IMG/VR virus record: IMGVR_UViG_3300036832_000642
Coordinates: 1-25,865 of that record
DNA length: 25,865 nt
Source of the DNA: a virus
Reading direction: 5' to 3' (one strand)
Positions within the stretch are counted from its first letter, which is position 1. The number at the start of each line of letters is the position of its first letter. A model generated the notes under the pieces. That model saw only the letters and a program-made list of their open reading frames with translations. It was not told the origin of the DNA and ran no database searches. A program made the position numbers and the translations under genes. Shown here piece by piece: positions 4,681-25,441 of the stretch.

Positions 4681-4925
4681 TGCCGCTCAGCAGCCCGACG
4701 CCTCCGATCGTCAGCGCTCCGCGGTGGGCGGGCGTCGGGCTGCGAGCCCAGCTCCTCCTCGGCTGGCAGCGGTTCCCGATGCCGTCCTGGCCGGCCGACT
4801 GGTGGCAGCGGAACTACGACCTGCTCTACGAGTACGACGCGCCCGGCACCTGGCCGTGGACTGACCGGATGGCGGGCGTCCCCGGCTGGCCGACCGTCAC
4901 CCACTTCGGAGAGGAGCAGCCGTGA
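4680..4925 (+). CDS. Trp-rich small hypothetical protein
   Basis: 81 residues, starting at an ATG that shares one base with the previous stop and ending in a GTGA overlap with the connector gene. It is unusually rich in tryptophan (W in WAGV, GWQRF, SWPADWWQRN, TWPWTD, GWPTV) and proline. I do not recognise the family. The overlaps on both sides argue for real translational coupling within the head operon. A head-completion or connector accessory role is possible from position only. Confidence 0.6.
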   Translation: MPLSSPTPPIVSAPRWAGVGLRAQLLLGWQRFPMPSWPADWWQRNYDLLYEYDAPGTWPWTDRMAGVPGWPTVTHFGEEQP

Positions 4926-5419
4926 CCGCACCGCCTGTGGTCGGCAGGCCGACCATCGACGACGTCGCGCTGCTCCTGCGAGCCCGGACGAAGGACTCCA
5001 CCGGCGCCGAGGTCGGCACGTTCGACGACGAGACGCGCCCGACCGGCGACCAGGTCGACGCGCACATCGACGCCGCGATGGCGCTCGTCGGCATCCGCTT
5101 CGGGCCGCTCGACAACCTGCCGGTGGAGGCGCAGACGGCGTTCGCGAGCCTCGTCGCCTACCGGGCCGCGCTCAGGGTCGAGAAGTCCTACTTCCCCGAG
5201 CAAGTGCGGAGCGACCGGTCGGCGTACATGCAGCTCCGCGAGGAGTACCTCGACGACCTCGCCGCGTTCACGGAGGCCGTCGCCGGCGGCGGCGGCGCCG
5301 GCGCCGTCCCGGACTACGACATGGCGATGATCCCCGTCGGCTCCTGGACGAGCATCCCCTACTCGTGGATCTGGCGGACAGACCCGGAGCTCGCGTGGCC
5401 GGAGGAGCCCGTCCCGTGA
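4922..5419 (+). CDS. Head-tail connector (adaptor) protein
   Basis: 165 residues from the GTG of a GTGA overlap. The N-terminal part starts with a short helix-forming stretch (PTIDDVALLLRART) and then a helical bundle (DQVDAHIDAAMALVG, then VEAQTAFASLVAYRAALRVEKSYFPEQV) like the HK97 gp6 / SPP1 gp15 adaptors that form the first ring under the portal. A Gly/Ala linker (AGGGGAG, about residues 121-127) leads to a Trp-rich tail (SWTSIPYSWIWRTD). It sits first in the string of connector genes after capsid, as expected. Confidence 0.7.
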   Translation: MTAPPVVGRPTIDDVALLLRARTKDSTGAEVGTFDDETRPTGDQVDAHIDAAMALVGIRFGPLDNLPVEAQTAFASLVAYRAALRVEKSYFPEQVRSDRSAYMQLREEYLDDLAAFTEAVAGGGGAGAVPDYDMAMIPVGSWTSIPYSWIWRTDPELAWPEEPVP

Positions 5420-20948: not shown

Positions 20949-21227
20949 TCAGCTCGGCAGATAGGCGTTGAGCGCGCGGCGGACGATCTCGCTCGGCGTC
21001 GCCTGCTCACGCTCAGCGACCTCATCCAGACGGCTACGCAGAGCCCGGTCGAGGCGAACCTGGACGACAGGCGAAGGCCCCTCGCCGCTCAGCGACGGAC
21101 GCCCGCGCGGGCGAAGCGACTCCGGGTCGTAGCCGCCCTCGGCCTCGTCGGCGAGCTCCTGGATCAGCTCGTCGGTGATCGGCCGGCCGTCCCTCATGTG
21201 CCCGTAGGTCTTCCTCTTCTCAGTCAT
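20949..21227 (-). CDS. Antitoxin, ribbon-helix-helix (CopG-like)
   Basis: 92 residues. The C-terminal 40 residues are a ribbon-helix-helix domain: a strand (SPVVQVRLD) followed by helix (RALRSRLDEVAEREQ) and then TPSEIVRRALNAYL, the usual second helix. The N-terminal half (ITDELIQELADEAEGGYDPE, then RPRGRPSL) is acidic and then basic and would hold the toxin-binding part. Its ATG overlaps the stop of the upstream toxin gene by 4 bases, so the pair is co-transcribed with the toxin first. The dimer should repress its own promoter near 21475. Confidence 0.78.
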   Translation of the reverse strand: MTEKRKTYGHMRDGRPITDELIQELADEAEGGYDPESLRPRGRPSLSGEGPSPVVQVRLDRALRSRLDEVAEREQATPSEIVRRALNAYLPS

Positions 21228-21463
21228 GGCAGCAGGTGCAGGTAGCTCCTGCGGATCGGCATGGCGTGGATAGCAATCGGTTCCTCCTCGTCTTCGGCGG
21301 GCCAGAGCACGACGACTTCGAGCACGCGCGCCTGCCGGTCGAACCCGAGATGCAGGAACCGTTGGTCATCGCCGAGGTCGAGAACGACGAGCGGATGCTC
21401 AACGGCGTGTTGGATGTCCTCGTCAGGGATGCCGTGTCTGCGCGCTGATTCATGAACCCTCAC
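21224..21463 (-). CDS. Toxin of a type II toxin-antitoxin pair, RelE/BrnT superfamily-like
   Basis: 79 residues from a GTG. The pattern HESARRHGIPDEDIQHAVEH, LDLGDDQRFLHLGFDRQARV, LEVVVLW and IAIHAMPIRRSYLHLLP is that of small toxins paired with ribbon-helix-helix proteins in actinobacteria; the final H-A-M-P-x-R-x-Y element resembles the catalytic end of BrnT/DUF4258-type RNases. Toxin-first order, as in BrnTA, agrees. RNase action is inferred from the superfamily. The GTG lies about where transcription should begin, suggesting a leaderless message. Confidence 0.72.
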   Translation of the reverse strand: MRVHESARRHGIPDEDIQHAVEHPLVVLDLGDDQRFLHLGFDRQARVLEVVVLWPAEDEEEPIAIHAMPIRRSYLHLLP

Positions 21464-21563: not shown

Positions 21564-22337
21564 TCATGACGTTGTGCGGAACATATTGCGCGATTTTAGT
21601 TCCGCTTTGCGCTTTCGGGCTGCGCGGTCTGACACACCCCATCGTTCGGCGAGCTTCCCCGTGTCGCCGCCGAACTCGGCGACGTCTTTCGCCCACTGCT
21701 CATGGTCCCCGGCAGGTCGTCCGGGGCCACGTGCGACGAGCTTGCCCAGCTGGTCGACGAGGTAACGGAGCTCGTCCGGCCCGACCACGTCCGCTTGGGT
21801 GCGGCGCGCGAGGACGTCGAGCTCACGCCGTCGCCGCGCGGAGATCCGTCGGGCACGTTCGTTGCGGGCGTTCTCTTCGAGCGAGCCGCCGTGGGCCTGT
21901 CTGGCGCGGACGCGGGGGGAGAGCGGCGGGCTGCGCAGCTCCTCGGTCTCGCCGCGTGTCCAACCGAGACGCCTCGCCCGCTCCAGAAGCGTTTCCGGTG
22001 TCGGTGCGCGCCAGGCCTCCGACGCCTGCGCGAGCGTTCGTCTCCTGCCGCTGTTCGCTTCCCGATCCATCATCGCGGCAAGGTCACCGCCCTTCCGTGT
22101 GTAAGCGAGCACCCGAGAGACGTCCTCGTGGCTGAGATCGCAACTGATCAGGAAATAGTCGAGCTCGCACTCCAGCCATCTCTCCGTGCCGAGCGCGGTT
22201 CGATACGTGCGCCACGCACCCGACTCCGCGATCGCGACGACCTCGTCGGTGAGCTCGCCGAGGCGTGAGAGGTTGCGCGCCTCCCCCATGAAACGGACGA
22301 CCTTCTCGCCAGCCTCGTCGAGGAACGGCTCGCTCAC
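21564..22337 (-). CDS. Basic protein with C-terminal HTH-like segment, partner of the HNH-helicase
   Basis: 257 residues, GTG start in a GTGA overlap with the helicase stop, so the two are translationally coupled. I do not recognise the family. Residues about 1-95 are helical and fairly hydrophobic (GAWRTYRTALGTERWLECEL, then DYFLISCDLSHEDVSRVLAY). The centre (residues about 125-180) is very Arg-rich (ARNERARRISARRRRELDVL), possibly nucleic-acid binding. The C-terminus (AEFGGDTGKLAERWGVSDRA) reads like a helix-turn-helix. It is the last gene of the accessory operon. DNA or RNA binding is inferred; no catalytic motif is seen. Confidence 0.7.
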   Translation of the reverse strand: MSEPFLDEAGEKVVRFMGEARNLSRLGELTDEVVAIAESGAWRTYRTALGTERWLECELDYFLISCDLSHEDVSRVLAYTRKGGDLAAMMDREANSGRRRTLAQASEAWRAPTPETLLERARRLGWTRGETEELRSPPLSPRVRARQAHGGSLEENARNERARRISARRRRELDVLARRTQADVVGPDELRYLVDQLGKLVARGPGRPAGDHEQWAKDVAEFGGDTGKLAERWGVSDRAARKRKAELKSRNMFRTTS

Positions 22338-24388
22338 AGCGGCGGCTCGCCCCTCTGATGGAAACGCTTCGCGTAGTCGAGCGAGCGCGTGAGCTGCGCG
22401 GTGCCCGCAGTACCGCGCTTGCCGTTAGGAATCGCCCCGGCGCTGTTGACCAGATGGACGTACTGCTGGATCGGCGTGAGAGACGGGTCTTTCCGCGCGA
22501 GAGCGGCCCAGCGGCGGTCCAGCTGGTTCAGCTGCGTCATCAGGATCGTCGCCTCCTCCTCAATCGTCGCCCTCACCGTCGCGACGCCCGCGTCCTGGAC
22601 CTCGGCGTCAGGAGCGACTGTGTCGAACGGGCGAGCCTGCAGCAGGTCGCGGATCGTGCGCTGACCGCTGATGATGATCCGCGGATGGAAAACCTCGGGC
22701 ACGTTCGCCTGCCTGAGGTGCGGCTCGAGCATCGCCGCGATCGCAGCGTCCATGTCCTCGTGAGAGCCGTCGGCGTACGCGACGGTCACCGTCTCCTCGC
22801 CCCTCTCGGCATCAGTGAGAACGAACCGGCGCATCAGCGGCCGCGAGACCCACTCCTGCTCGCCCTCGCGACGAACGACCTGCGGCTCGTCCTCGTGCAG
22901 GATCTCGTGCGTGTAAGGGGCCATATACAAGACGAGCTCTCTCACCAGGGCGGGCGAGTCGGGCAGCACGACCATGGCGGGCAGCACGTACCCGAGCTCG
23001 CGCTCGCGGTCGGTCACGCGCATCGCCCGGGCGGTCACCTGACGGACGTAAAGCGAGGTGAGCTTGTTCGACGCGTAGCCGACGACCGCGATCTCCGGGC
23101 AGTCGTATCCCTCGCCGGCCATGTCCACGGTGCAGAGCACTCCTGGTCGCTTCTGGTTGCGGAAGTGCTCGAGCGCGGCCTGGGCGTCGTCCTCACGACT
23201 GACGGCGAGCACGGCGAGCGGCTGCCGACCGCGCTCACGCATCTGCCTGTTGACCTCGTCACGAAAAGCCGTTGCCTGATCCTGGCTCGCCGCCACAATC
23301 AGCGCTTTCGCGTGATATGCGCCGAGTGCCCGATGCGCCTTCTCGAGGAGATCGAGGACGGAGCTCACGAAGGCTTCCAGCCACTCGTCGATCGTCGCGA
23401 GTTCACGCACCGCCGCACGGGCGGGCTTCTCGTCGAGGTCGCTCAGGTTGCCCTCGACGAACGTGAGCTCGGCGTAGTCCGCAACACGAACCTTCGCGTC
23501 GAGCCGGTAGAGATCGACTGAGCGCAGCTGGCCGGCGAGGATCAGCTCCTCGACCGTCACGGTCGCGTCCACGAGCGACGTGATCTTCCCCTCGTCGTCG
23601 GGTGCGGAGTAACGGACGGTCGAGATCCGCTCCCGCGGCTGCGACCGCCAGAGCGTTCCCGAGACGTTGAGGATGCCGGCGACGCGGATATCGCCTGTCT
23701 CGACATCGCCGGCGAGCTCGGCGACGGCGCGAGCCCAGGCCTTGTGCCCCTTCTCGGGATCCTGGCCAAGATGATGAGGCTCGTCGAGCACGAGCAGAGT
23801 CGGGGTTCTGTGGACCTGCGTCATGTGAGCTTCGAGCATGTCCCGGTTCGCCAACGACTGATAGGTGACGACGACCCCGTGTTGACCCGGCCGCTCGACG
23901 GCCGAGTGCGGCTTCAAGTCGACGTGTCGGGCAGATCCGAGCGCGGCCGCCCACTGTTTGCCGAGGCCGCGGCGCGGCACGAGCACGACCATGCGCTCGA
24001 CCAGGCCCATGTCCCGCAGCGTCTCGAACACGAGAGACGCGAAGATCGTCTTGCCGGCGCCGGGCGCGGCCGAAAGCGTGGCAGCGCCCCTCCGAACGAT
24101 CGCGTCGACTACGCGGTCGATCTCACGCAGTTGCCACTGGCGCGGCATGAGCCGCGGGTCGCGCACATCCCGCGCGCCAAGAATCAGGTTGCAGCGCGAG
24201 CACCACGCCTCCAGATTCGACTCGTCGTCGATCCCGCCGTGCGCTCGAGCGCGAAGGTGAGACTCATGGAAGGTCTCGATCGTGATCGCTGTCGGGCACC
24301 GGCCGTCGTGGCCACCGCACGCGCCTTCGCACTGACATCGCCCGCCCGCACGTGCAAGGACCCGCTCTCGGCGTGCACGTCTTGTCAT
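22334..24388 (-). CDS. HNH nuclease - SF2 helicase fusion
   Basis: 684 residues, ATG at 24388 with a weak TAAGG ribosome site. The N-terminal 70 residues are an HNH-type domain: Cys 18, 20, 24 and 31, His 41 and 44, HGG at 50-52, Asn 58 in SNLEAWC, then Cys 63 and 66, ending CSRCN (an HNN variant). Residues about 80-460 are a superfamily 2 helicase of the ResIII/DEAD type: MPRQWQLREI, Walker A AAPGAGKT (107-114), LDEPHH (201-206), SGTLWR (243-248), VDMAGEGYDCPEI (421-433) and QVTARAMRV (450-458). The last 220 residues are unfamiliar. An ATP-driven enzyme that moves on DNA and cuts it is expected. It may be a defence or exclusion protein, given its place in the prophage accessory operon; this role is inferred. 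Confidence 0.85.
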   Translation of the reverse strand: MTRRARRERVLARAGGRCQCEGACGGHDGRCPTAITIETFHESHLRARAHGGIDDESNLEAWCSRCNLILGARDVRDPRLMPRQWQLREIDRVVDAIVRRGAATLSAAPGAGKTIFASLVFETLRDMGLVERMVVLVPRRGLGKQWAAALGSARHVDLKPHSAVERPGQHGVVVTYQSLANRDMLEAHMTQVHRTPTLLVLDEPHHLGQDPEKGHKAWARAVAELAGDVETGDIRVAGILNVSGTLWRSQPRERISTVRYSAPDDEGKITSLVDATVTVEELILAGQLRSVDLYRLDAKVRVADYAELTFVEGNLSDLDEKPARAAVRELATIDEWLEAFVSSVLDLLEKAHRALGAYHAKALIVAASQDQATAFRDEVNRQMRERGRQPLAVLAVSREDDAQAALEHFRNQKRPGVLCTVDMAGEGYDCPEIAVVGYASNKLTSLYVRQVTARAMRVTDRERELGYVLPAMVVLPDSPALVRELVLYMAPYTHEILHEDEPQVVRREGEQEWVSRPLMRRFVLTDAERGEETVTVAYADGSHEDMDAAIAAMLEPHLRQANVPEVFHPRIIISGQRTIRDLLQARPFDTVAPDAEVQDAGVATVRATIEEEATILMTQLNQLDRRWAALARKDPSLTPIQQYVHLVNSAGAIPNGKRGTAGTAQLTRSLDYAKRFHQRGEPPL

Positions 24389-24395
24389 CGGGGCC

Positions 24396-24680
24396 TTAGG
24401 TGATCTGCTTCTTCAGCAGATCGGCCTTCTGGAGCAGGTAGACGGTTGCGTGGTGGTCGGGTGCACTCGTGCCTGCGACCCACCGGTTGACCTTCCGCGC
24501 CTGCGTAGCCTCGATGAAGCCGTCACGGGCGAGCAGGTTTGCGAGCTGGCCGGCTGTCGAGGTGCCGAGTTCGCCCATCACGACTTGCATGAACCGCACG
24601 ACAGCTTCATCCGTAAGGTCGTTCGGGGCAGGCATCTCTGCCACGACGATAGTGGCGTCGCTTCCGGCCCACAATGACAT
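24396..24680 (-). CDS. Small HTH regulator-like protein, first gene of the accessory operon
   Basis: 94 residues from the ATG at 24680; the longer open frame to 24908 crosses the regulatory region and has no coding character. The sequence (STAGQLANLLARDGFIEATQ, then ARKVNRWVAGTSAPDHHATV and YLLQKADLL) resembles compact XRE-like HTH proteins in which RWxxGxSxP follows the recognition helix. It would act as a Cro-like or local regulator. It lies 7 bases upstream of the HNH-helicase and diverges from the repressor. Its last codons form an 8-bp hairpin. Confidence 0.66.
   Translation of the reverse strand: MSLWAGSDATIVVAEMPAPNDLTDEAVVRFMQVVMGELGTSTAGQLANLLARDGFIEATQARKVNRWVAGTSAPDHHATVYLLQKADLLKKQIT
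24402..24422. promoter_or_regulatory. 8-bp hairpin at the HTH-helicase junction
   Basis: Perfect inverted repeat GATCTGCT (24402-24409) and AGCAGATC (24415-24422) with a 5-base loop. In the leftward transcript it falls in the last codons of the HTH gene, just before the weak helicase ribosome site. It may attenuate or couple helicase expression. No U-run follows. Confidence 0.5.
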
Positions 24681-24703: not shown

Positions 24704-24941
24704 CGGTGAGCGTCGCCTTTCTGTGGCGGACGGAGGCGGCGGACATGGACGACGGACTGCGGCGCAGTCGGTCAGGGGTCAGTGGGAGGGGGATATGGCA
24801 CGTGACCCACAGGCAGCGCAGACCGGGTGGCGGAAGGTCGCCAGAATGCGCCAGACGCCGCCAGTTTCCGCCACGAAAGCCGCTGAGAGCGGCAAGCGCG
24901 AGTTGCAAGGTCGGCGAGCCGGGTCGAGCCTACGCGACCTG
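24681..24941. promoter_or_regulatory. Regulatory region between HTH gene and repressor, with operator-like repeats
   Basis: About 260 bases that do not look coding (third-position GC drops to ordinary values in any frame). It holds the divergent promoters, an 8-mer GTGGCGGA three times (24723, 24827 and, inverted, 24867-24874), an inverted repeat TGGCG-N6-CGCCA (24828-24843) and the four 10-bp repeats listed below. Most likely the lysogeny switch operators. An alternative repressor start at 24795, with a GGAGG-like site, would put part of it inside a gene. Confidence 0.5.
24839..24878. repeat. Four tandem 10-bp iterons, CGCCAG-N4
   Basis: CGCCAG starts at 24839, 24849 and 24859, and CGCCAC at 24869, exactly one helical turn apart. 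The four following bases vary. The period is not a multiple of three, so codon constraint does not explain it. Likely stacked binding sites on one face of the DNA. Confidence 0.75.
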
Positions 24942-25253
24942 ATGGCTCGCCGCGATGTCGTAATCCAAGTAGAGGACACTGGAACGCTCGTCAGGCTCGA
25001 GACGCTCGGGGCACGGCTGGAATACGCCCGGCTCTACCGGAGGCTGTCACGGCTCCAGCTCGCGCGCGCCGCCGGCTACCTGAGCGACACGACCGTCCGC
25101 CGCTACGAGACGCCGGGCGCGGTCGCGCAGCCGCAGATCCGCGTCGTGAGCCGCTTCGCGGAGGCGCTCGGCTGCGACCACATCTGGCTGATGGTCGGCC
25201 GCGGCGCGCCGAACTGGCAAGAGAGACGCCGCGACGCCCGGAGCCGCACGTGA
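24942..25253 (+). CDS. XRE-family repressor
   Basis: 103 residues from the ATG at 24942. The HTH core is LGARLEYARLYRRLSRLQLA, then RAAGYLSDTTVRRYETPG and RVVSRFAEALGCDHIWLMVG, the usual Cro/C1-type five-helix layout with a short basic C-terminus. It lies at the head of a repressor-xis-int run and divergent from the HTH-helicase operon, as a prophage repressor would. Upstream in-frame ATGs at 24846 and 24795 (the latter with a GGAGG-like site) are possible starts; the added residues are not conserved-looking and cover the iterons, so the shorter form is preferred. There is no peptidase domain for RecA-dependent cleavage. Confidence 0.75.
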   Translation: MARRDVVIQVEDTGTLVRLETLGARLEYARLYRRLSRLQLARAAGYLSDTTVRRYETPGAVAQPQIRVVSRFAEALGCDHIWLMVGRGAPNWQERRRDARSRT

Positions 25254-25441
25254 CCTTCGTGCAGCAACCCGTGTATCTCACCCGGCAGGAGGCAGCCGAC
25301 TACGCCCGCCTCAGCCTCTCGACGATCAAGCGCGCGCTCCGTGCCGGCGAGCTGCACGCCGTCGGCAGCCGCGGCCGCGTCCGCATCCGGCCCGAATGGG
25401 TCGAGGCGTGGCTCGAGCGACGCAACGACCGCCTAGAATGA
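25250..25441 (+). CDS. xis: Excisionase / MerR-like DNA-binding protein
   Basis: 63 residues, GTG start in a GTGA overlap with the repressor. A winged-helix HTH_17 domain covers nearly all of it: VYLTRQEAADYARLSLSTIK, then RALRAGELHAVGSRGRVRIR and PEWVEAWLERR. Such proteins bend attachment-site DNA to direct integrase toward excision. The integrase begins 36 bases downstream. It could instead be a regulator of int, since the family does both. Confidence 0.85.
   Translation: MTFVQQPVYLTRQEAADYARLSLSTIKRALRAGELHAVGSRGRVRIRPEWVEAWLERRNDRLE

Follow-up and report, generated by a model that had tools for sequence, protein, structure and literature searches.

The locus and its setting

Does the fusion of an HNH domain to an SF2 helicase, encoded leftward near the right end of the IMG/VR record IMGVR_UViG_3300036832_000642, belong to a module that interferes with foreign DNA, or to the replication and repair of the phage that carries it? 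The whole record (25,865 bases) was analysed and is called the window here. It is a contractile-tail phage or prophage fragment whose structural and endolysin genes (terminase, portal, head, sheath, tape measure, baseplate, fibre and endolysin) are on the + strand. Sequence upstream of the terminase is absent from the record, and replication genes may lie there. The profiled stretch (15-25.9 kb) is GC-rich, and its composition gives no sign of a recent import of the region.

The right end of the window consists of a lysogeny region with a divergent repressor-like HTH gene (24723..25253, + strand; the true start is probably internal, at about 24943), an excisionase-like HTH_17 gene found in the Pfam/PHROG scan (25250..25441, + strand), and an apparent integrase start that is cut by the contig end, recognised by eye and without a significant match. 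The region separating the divergent HTH genes holds three direct repeats of 15 nt (CGCCAG-type, 10 bp spacing, 24827-24874) and an inverted repeat (GTGGCGGAA/TTCCGCCAC), together a possible operator. Adjoining the leftward genes on the other side, overlapping small genes (20949-21463, - strand) are likely a toxin-antitoxin cassette, with a ribbon-helix-helix antitoxin candidate (RHH_1, above cutoff) and a weak BrnT-like toxin candidate (Pfam E 0.004, below cutoff).

The ORF coordinates agree exactly with the arrangement described in an earlier, sequence-only reading: three leftward ORFs joined by a 7-base gap (24389-24395) and a four-base GTGA start-stop overlap (22334..22337, - strand), short overlaps at the latter junction being found in most relatives. 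The outermost ORF, upstream of the helicase gene, encodes a possible HTH protein of 94 aa (24396..24680, - strand; ATG at 24680, stop at 24396). Its start is uncertain, as an in-frame TTG at 24908 would give 170 aa. The ORF thus exists as described, but its HTH nature was judged by eye only (best PHROG E 0.019) and Pfam gives no match. The gene has no relatives, its two matches amounting to merely 19 residues shared with a phage structural-region protein. On this comparison it is a lineage-specific local gene outside the conserved module, and of the supposed three-gene operon only the other two genes remain as a conserved unit. The claim that the operon is regulated by its own HTH gene falls with it, the 94-aa gene not being conserved with the pair. 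In three phages a small HTH-like gene directly follows the partner gene as an optional third gene (L003, 4950-5165; L015, the same as L005, 7448-7708; L017, the same as L007, 8480-8710).

The HNH-SF2 protein

The central gene (22334..24388, - strand) encodes a protein of 684 aa that was divided, using Pfam, alignment and a structure model, into an HNH domain (residues 1-78 approximately; 24155..24388, - strand; Pfam and an alignment of 18 sequences), a two-lobe motor (79-480) and a variable C-terminal extension (481-684). The Pfam HNH match is barely over its cutoff (22.1 versus 21.4 bits), and ResIII matches with 43.6 bits (E 4e-11). The motor contains Walker A (motif I, AAPGAGKT, residues 107-114; 24047..24070, - strand), of which residues 108-110 and 112-114 are invariant; an aligned motif II reading DEPHH (202-206; 23771..23785, - strand), with the P found only in the window protein and DEVHH in the other aligned relatives; an SGT motif (243-245); motif V (VDMAGEGYDCP); and an aligned motif VI with both arginines (QVTARAMR, Q450..R454..R457; 23018..23041, - strand). 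K113, D202, E203, H205, Q450, R454 and R457 are invariant in the 18 aligned sequences. The proposed fusion of an HNH domain with an SF2 helicase carrying all main motifs is hence borne out by the Pfam matches as well as by the invariance of the catalytic residues in 18 relatives. Relatives share 37-64% identity over nearly the full length, a resemblance that exceeds chance.

Within the HNH domain, H44, N58, N67, C18, C63 and C66 are invariant in 18 of 18 sequences and C31 is conserved in 17 of 18; C18, C31, C63 and C66 are the Zn cysteines. At position 43, just before the catalytic His, all 18 sequences have Ser or Ala in place of the usual Asp. In endonuclease VII and ZRANB3 this position holds a metal-binding Asp, which in ZRANB3 is essential, D1020A killing activity (PMC5481773); in I-PpoI, a single Asn is the protein ligand of the one bound metal (PMC11092635). 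We take the HNH domain of the window branch to be an altered nuclease that is probably active. The absent Asp could also mean that the nuclease is weak or dead, which counts against a role in interference.

The structure model of the motor (pLDDT 81) matches EcoR124I HsdR, RadD, XPB, SNF2 remodellers and the Type ISP enzyme LlaBIII, matches that would place the 684-aa protein in the dsDNA-translocase group. Its best PHROG match is the phage 'DNA helicase' family phrog_16, and its PADLOC matches are weak and confined to motor segments; both results speak against interference.

The partner protein

The downstream gene (21564..22337, - strand) encodes an Arg-rich protein of 257 aa, examined by alignment and structure model and called the partner here. 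Its N-terminal domain is conserved and carries an EFDYFL motif (ELDYFL in the window), and its C-terminus is variable and HTH-like. No match was obtained in Pfam, PHROG, NCBIfam or PADLOC. In the model (pLDDT 88.6), helices predominate, accompanied by a small hairpin, and those at the C-terminus form an HTH-like group. It retrieves nothing at E <= 0.001 from PDB or BFVD; the partner thus appears to represent an orphan family of new fold. The initial description as an HTH-like protein of no recognised family therefore stands as to the missing family match and the helices in the model, but not for the family as a whole: the HTH-like C-terminus is absent in about five of 19 partner relatives, which locates the core function of the partner in the N-terminal domain with the EFDYFL motif.

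Conservation of the pair

The partner adjoins the helicase in every relative found, namely in 13 further viral contigs and in three MAGs of the window branch (Chloroflexi, Microbacteriaceae and Acidobacteria). Six of the viral loci were found first, four by a wider helicase search and three by a partner-only search of IMG/VR; in all three of the latter, the helicase gene lies immediately upstream. The partner is encoded directly downstream of the helicase, mostly overlapping or nearly so. No other gene is common to more than three of the window-branch loci. In an all-against-all comparison of flanking genes from both branches described here, the helicase occurs in all loci and the window-type partner in 17 (the partner of L034 is present, yet was skipped by the gene caller), followed by a cluster of four sister partners and then by clusters of three members. 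The distance matrices of helicase and partner correlate (r 0.74, Mantel p 0.0005). The expectation that the genes for the 684- and 257-residue proteins are kept together was confirmed by the HMM and neighbour survey at every locus found. Each member combines an N-terminal HNH on a ResIII/SF2 motor with a partner encoded downstream, and the sequence comparisons firmly support the anatomy and pairing of a helicase-partner pair as the real unit. Among 396 Actinomycetota and 247 Acidobacteriota genomes, none outside the seed genomes yielded a further convincing partner, which indicates that the window branch is rare.

Four copies of the pair (L009, L010, L011 and L052) lie on short contigs of one Microbacteriaceae MAG; they are divergent and differ in their partner C-termini.

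A sister branch and relatives without HNH

A scan of IMG/VR for the wider family yielded 75 loci. Sister HNH-SF2 proteins are encoded on Streptomyces plasmids and in the Saccharomonospora phage PIS 136, the only cultured phage in which the sister pair was found. They have the same HNH, ResIII motor and C-terminal extension as the window protein and a partner of about 200 aa overlapping or adjacent downstream, with a related N-terminal domain and a different C-terminus. The sister HNH keeps the Asp, where the window branch has Ser or Ala, and sister and window proteins share about 24-30% identity. The helicases match as full-length profiles (E 5e-60); the partner N-terminal domains match with E 1.5e-5 when 31 sister sequences are used and with E 0.0042 when four are used. 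The sister proteins are annotated as DEAD/DEAH helicase or HNH endonuclease and are unnamed; the branch shows similarity to TIGR04095, a Dnd restriction helicase (E 1e-16), and to PbeA.

On a Streptomyces yangpuensis plasmid (L047), the annotated helicase start probably misses an upstream in-frame HNH part (about 4867-5137). Contig 45 of G119 (L061, 148-771) carries a sister partner beside an integrase and an excisionase. No helicase lies upstream, and on the partner's other side the contig stops.

An all-frame HMM search detects a partner in 36 of 37 HNH-fused loci versus five of 17 HNH-less loci (Fisher p 2e-7). After a hand check the counts are 38 of 38 versus four of 13, with L102 corrected to a variant HNH, L119 recognised as the window-family locus L030 with its own partner, and the truncated or doubtful loci L091, L112 and L118 left out. 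Among 39 HNH-fused loci, no gene other than the partner recurs in more than four. The presence of the partner thus goes with the HNH domain and not with the motor, a pattern suggesting control or targeting of the nuclease by the partner.

Genomic position and mobility

Within the window branch, the pair lies opposite to the main coding strand with its lytic genes in 11 of 14 viral loci. By codon counts, ten of these fall below 0.4 on the strand of the pair and L018, where integrase and HTH share that strand and the tail genes are opposite, is borderline at 0.56; the orientation counts come from a simple gene caller, a point against interference. HNH-less relatives are on the main strand in eight of eight loci. 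An integrase lies near the pair in six loci (L002, L006, L008, L018, L019 and L021) and probably in the window. The Acidobacteria pair (L012/L054) resides on a chromosomal island with a serine recombinase, and sister copies reside on plasmids. The same island (L054, 10956-13319) holds, between its XRE gene and the pair, a linked group of two or three genes, one of them for a P-loop ATPase; these are a possible further cargo system, with no clear PADLOC match.

Positions within phages vary: the pair is found between terminase and portal (L030), between terminase and replication initiator (L003), or divergent from RecT, YqaJ or replication genes (L004, L005 and L007). Several carrier phages own separate initiators, RecT or RusA. 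Other loci point away from interference. In L028 the pair follows a replication gene within the main operon. In L052 a window-type pair is divergent from a repressor gene, and an excisionase gene follows the pair on a sibling contig, which together give a layout like that of early lytic genes. Finally, two Microbacteriaceae MAG contigs carry other HNH-SF2 helicases with partner (L059, 482-3396, 774 aa; L060, 373-3719, 850 aa) directly upstream of closely similar genes for a 91-aa protein, a replication initiator and an SSB; here the pair is a swapped unit heading a replication operon. The 774-aa variant has no match in IMG/VR.

The accessory position mostly opposite to the lytic genes, which the sequence-only reading had taken as typical of prophage-borne defence, thus recurs in 11 of 14 viral loci. 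The contrary evidence named there, homologues mainly within replication modules, is found in part in the wider family (L059/L060 and L028). The varied positions, the opposite strand and the presence of separate replication genes in carriers together indicate that the pair behaves as accessory cargo.

Comparison with known systems

A nuclease combined with an SF2 motor is a recurring theme in defence and in fork processing. As had been supposed from the letters, no named system fits: PADLOC, NCBIfam and Pfam provide no adequate match, and membership in a known defence system is rejected on this ground. HsdR, LlaBIII and the Dnd/Pbe helicases share motor fold and ResIII similarity with the 684-aa protein but carry nuclease domains of their own, where the latter has the HNH. 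Type I and type III restriction-modification found no support, since Pfam and PHROG showed neither methyltransferase nor specificity functions among the genes scanned around the window pair (the contig lacks its upstream end). Dnd/Pbe defence was likewise discarded, as the PbeA match covers a motor segment only (E 1e-8); no phosphorothioation genes were found beside the window pair, and PADLOC found no further Pbe/Dnd proteins among the five proteins scanned.

Hachiman consists of the nuclease gene HamA beside the SF2 helicase HamB, and Septu of the ABC-type ATPase PtuA and the separate HNH protein PtuB. Their two-gene layout of nuclease and NTPase resembles the pair, but in the window one chain unites nuclease and motor, and the partner belongs to a new family. 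The PADLOC models of Hachiman and Septu match neither protein. Hachiman was excluded since neither the helicase nor four nearby proteins scanned matched its models, and Septu since the motor is SF2 and the HNH is in the same chain.

Outside defence, the eukaryotic SNF2-HNH protein ZRANB3 likewise has an SF2 motor and a Zn-HNH in one chain, with nuclease activity coupled to ATP hydrolysis (PMC5481773). It differs by its C-terminal HNH, its binding of PCNA and the presence of the catalytic Asp. We know of no partner of this kind for ZRANB3. In T4, the SF2 branch helicase UvsW and the junction nuclease endonuclease VII work on shared DNA intermediates (PMC3016281); they differ from the pair as separate genes of the replication programme, and any likeness would be one of function.

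Function of the pair

Domains, motifs, pairing, co-variation and mobility establish a portable two-gene module of mobile elements. For its function we favour interference with foreign DNA over branched-DNA processing in phage replication, on account of the opposed strand, the vicinity of integrase and repressor genes, and the copies on island and plasmids. That the pair is a carried defence or superinfection-exclusion module would, judged from the comparisons above, have a probability of about 0.5. In this mechanism, the first protein would move along dsDNA as an ATP-driven translocase like HsdR, RadD and XPB and carry its HNH nuclease at the N-terminus; the second, a partner with a new fold whose translation is coupled to that of the first, very probably binds the first or controls it and, in many copies, very probably binds DNA as well. 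A resident prophage, plasmid or island would most likely express the pair. The complex might then load on incoming or competing DNA, told apart by structure, ends or missing host features rather than by a known modification, translocate, and nick or cut it. We infer the cleavage, the antiviral role and the part of the partner as regulator or targeting subunit from these comparisons. PADLOC found no clear known defence genes beside the copies tested, which counts against this interpretation.

The strongest competitor, to which we give noticeably less credence, is phage DNA metabolism. Here the pair would do in one piece the work of UvsW plus endonuclease VII during recombination-dependent replication or repair, with the motor regressing forks or migrating branches, the HNH cutting junctions, and the partner acting as loader or branch-binding factor. 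The phrog_16 match and the L059/L060 operons with initiator and SSB agree with it, as do the HNH-less relatives, which are often found with SbcCD-like, RecT or replication genes, and the sister loci near DnaB, RusA, RecT or YqaJ (names assigned by eye). In T4, UvsW regresses forks that endonuclease VII cuts (PMC3016281), and the SF2-HNH protein ZRANB3 is a structure-specific nuclease that depends on ATP and has endonuclease VII as its nearest relative in fold (PMC5481773). A component of replication is, however, harder to reconcile with the varying position and mostly opposed strand, with carriers that already hold initiators, RecT or RusA, with the copies on island and plasmids, and with a partner that follows the HNH domain instead of the motor.

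Two further explanations appear improbable. The frequent integrase, excisionase and repressor genes nearby would suit an accessory of lysogeny that aids excision, integration or inheritance of the element, but these integrases are of different types, and pairs between terminase and portal (L030) or between terminase and replication genes (L003) fit poorly. Slightly less probable still is selfish homing or exclusion, by which the HNH would cut pair-free relatives so that the cassette spreads. The HNH domain itself, the insertion at unrelated positions and the swapped versions that precede very similar genes in L059/L060 are compatible with homing; against it, a search with a nearby tail gene led to one distant locus and to no empty site in the same phage, and, to our knowledge, homing enzymes require neither a dsDNA motor nor a partner.

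Interference thus remains the favoured function. The pair is a new, unnamed variant of the theme of nuclease plus SF2 motor with an orphan partner family: a fixed combination of an HNH-translocase with a small partner that has neither family name nor known fold was absent from the libraries and papers searched. The wider proposition, somewhat short of even odds in our judgement, is that it represents an undescribed class of mobile interference in phages, plasmids and islands of several phyla, in which an HNH dsDNA translocase would be joined by a new-fold partner as sensor or switch of the nuclease. If the pair acts in defence, it adds a prophage- and plasmid-borne system in which the HNH, Walker A and EFDYFL residues are directly testable. 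If its role is in DNA metabolism, the fusion would be the bacterial equivalent, in one chain, of UvsW plus endonuclease VII or of ZRANB3. In both cases the orphan partner family would gain its first function.
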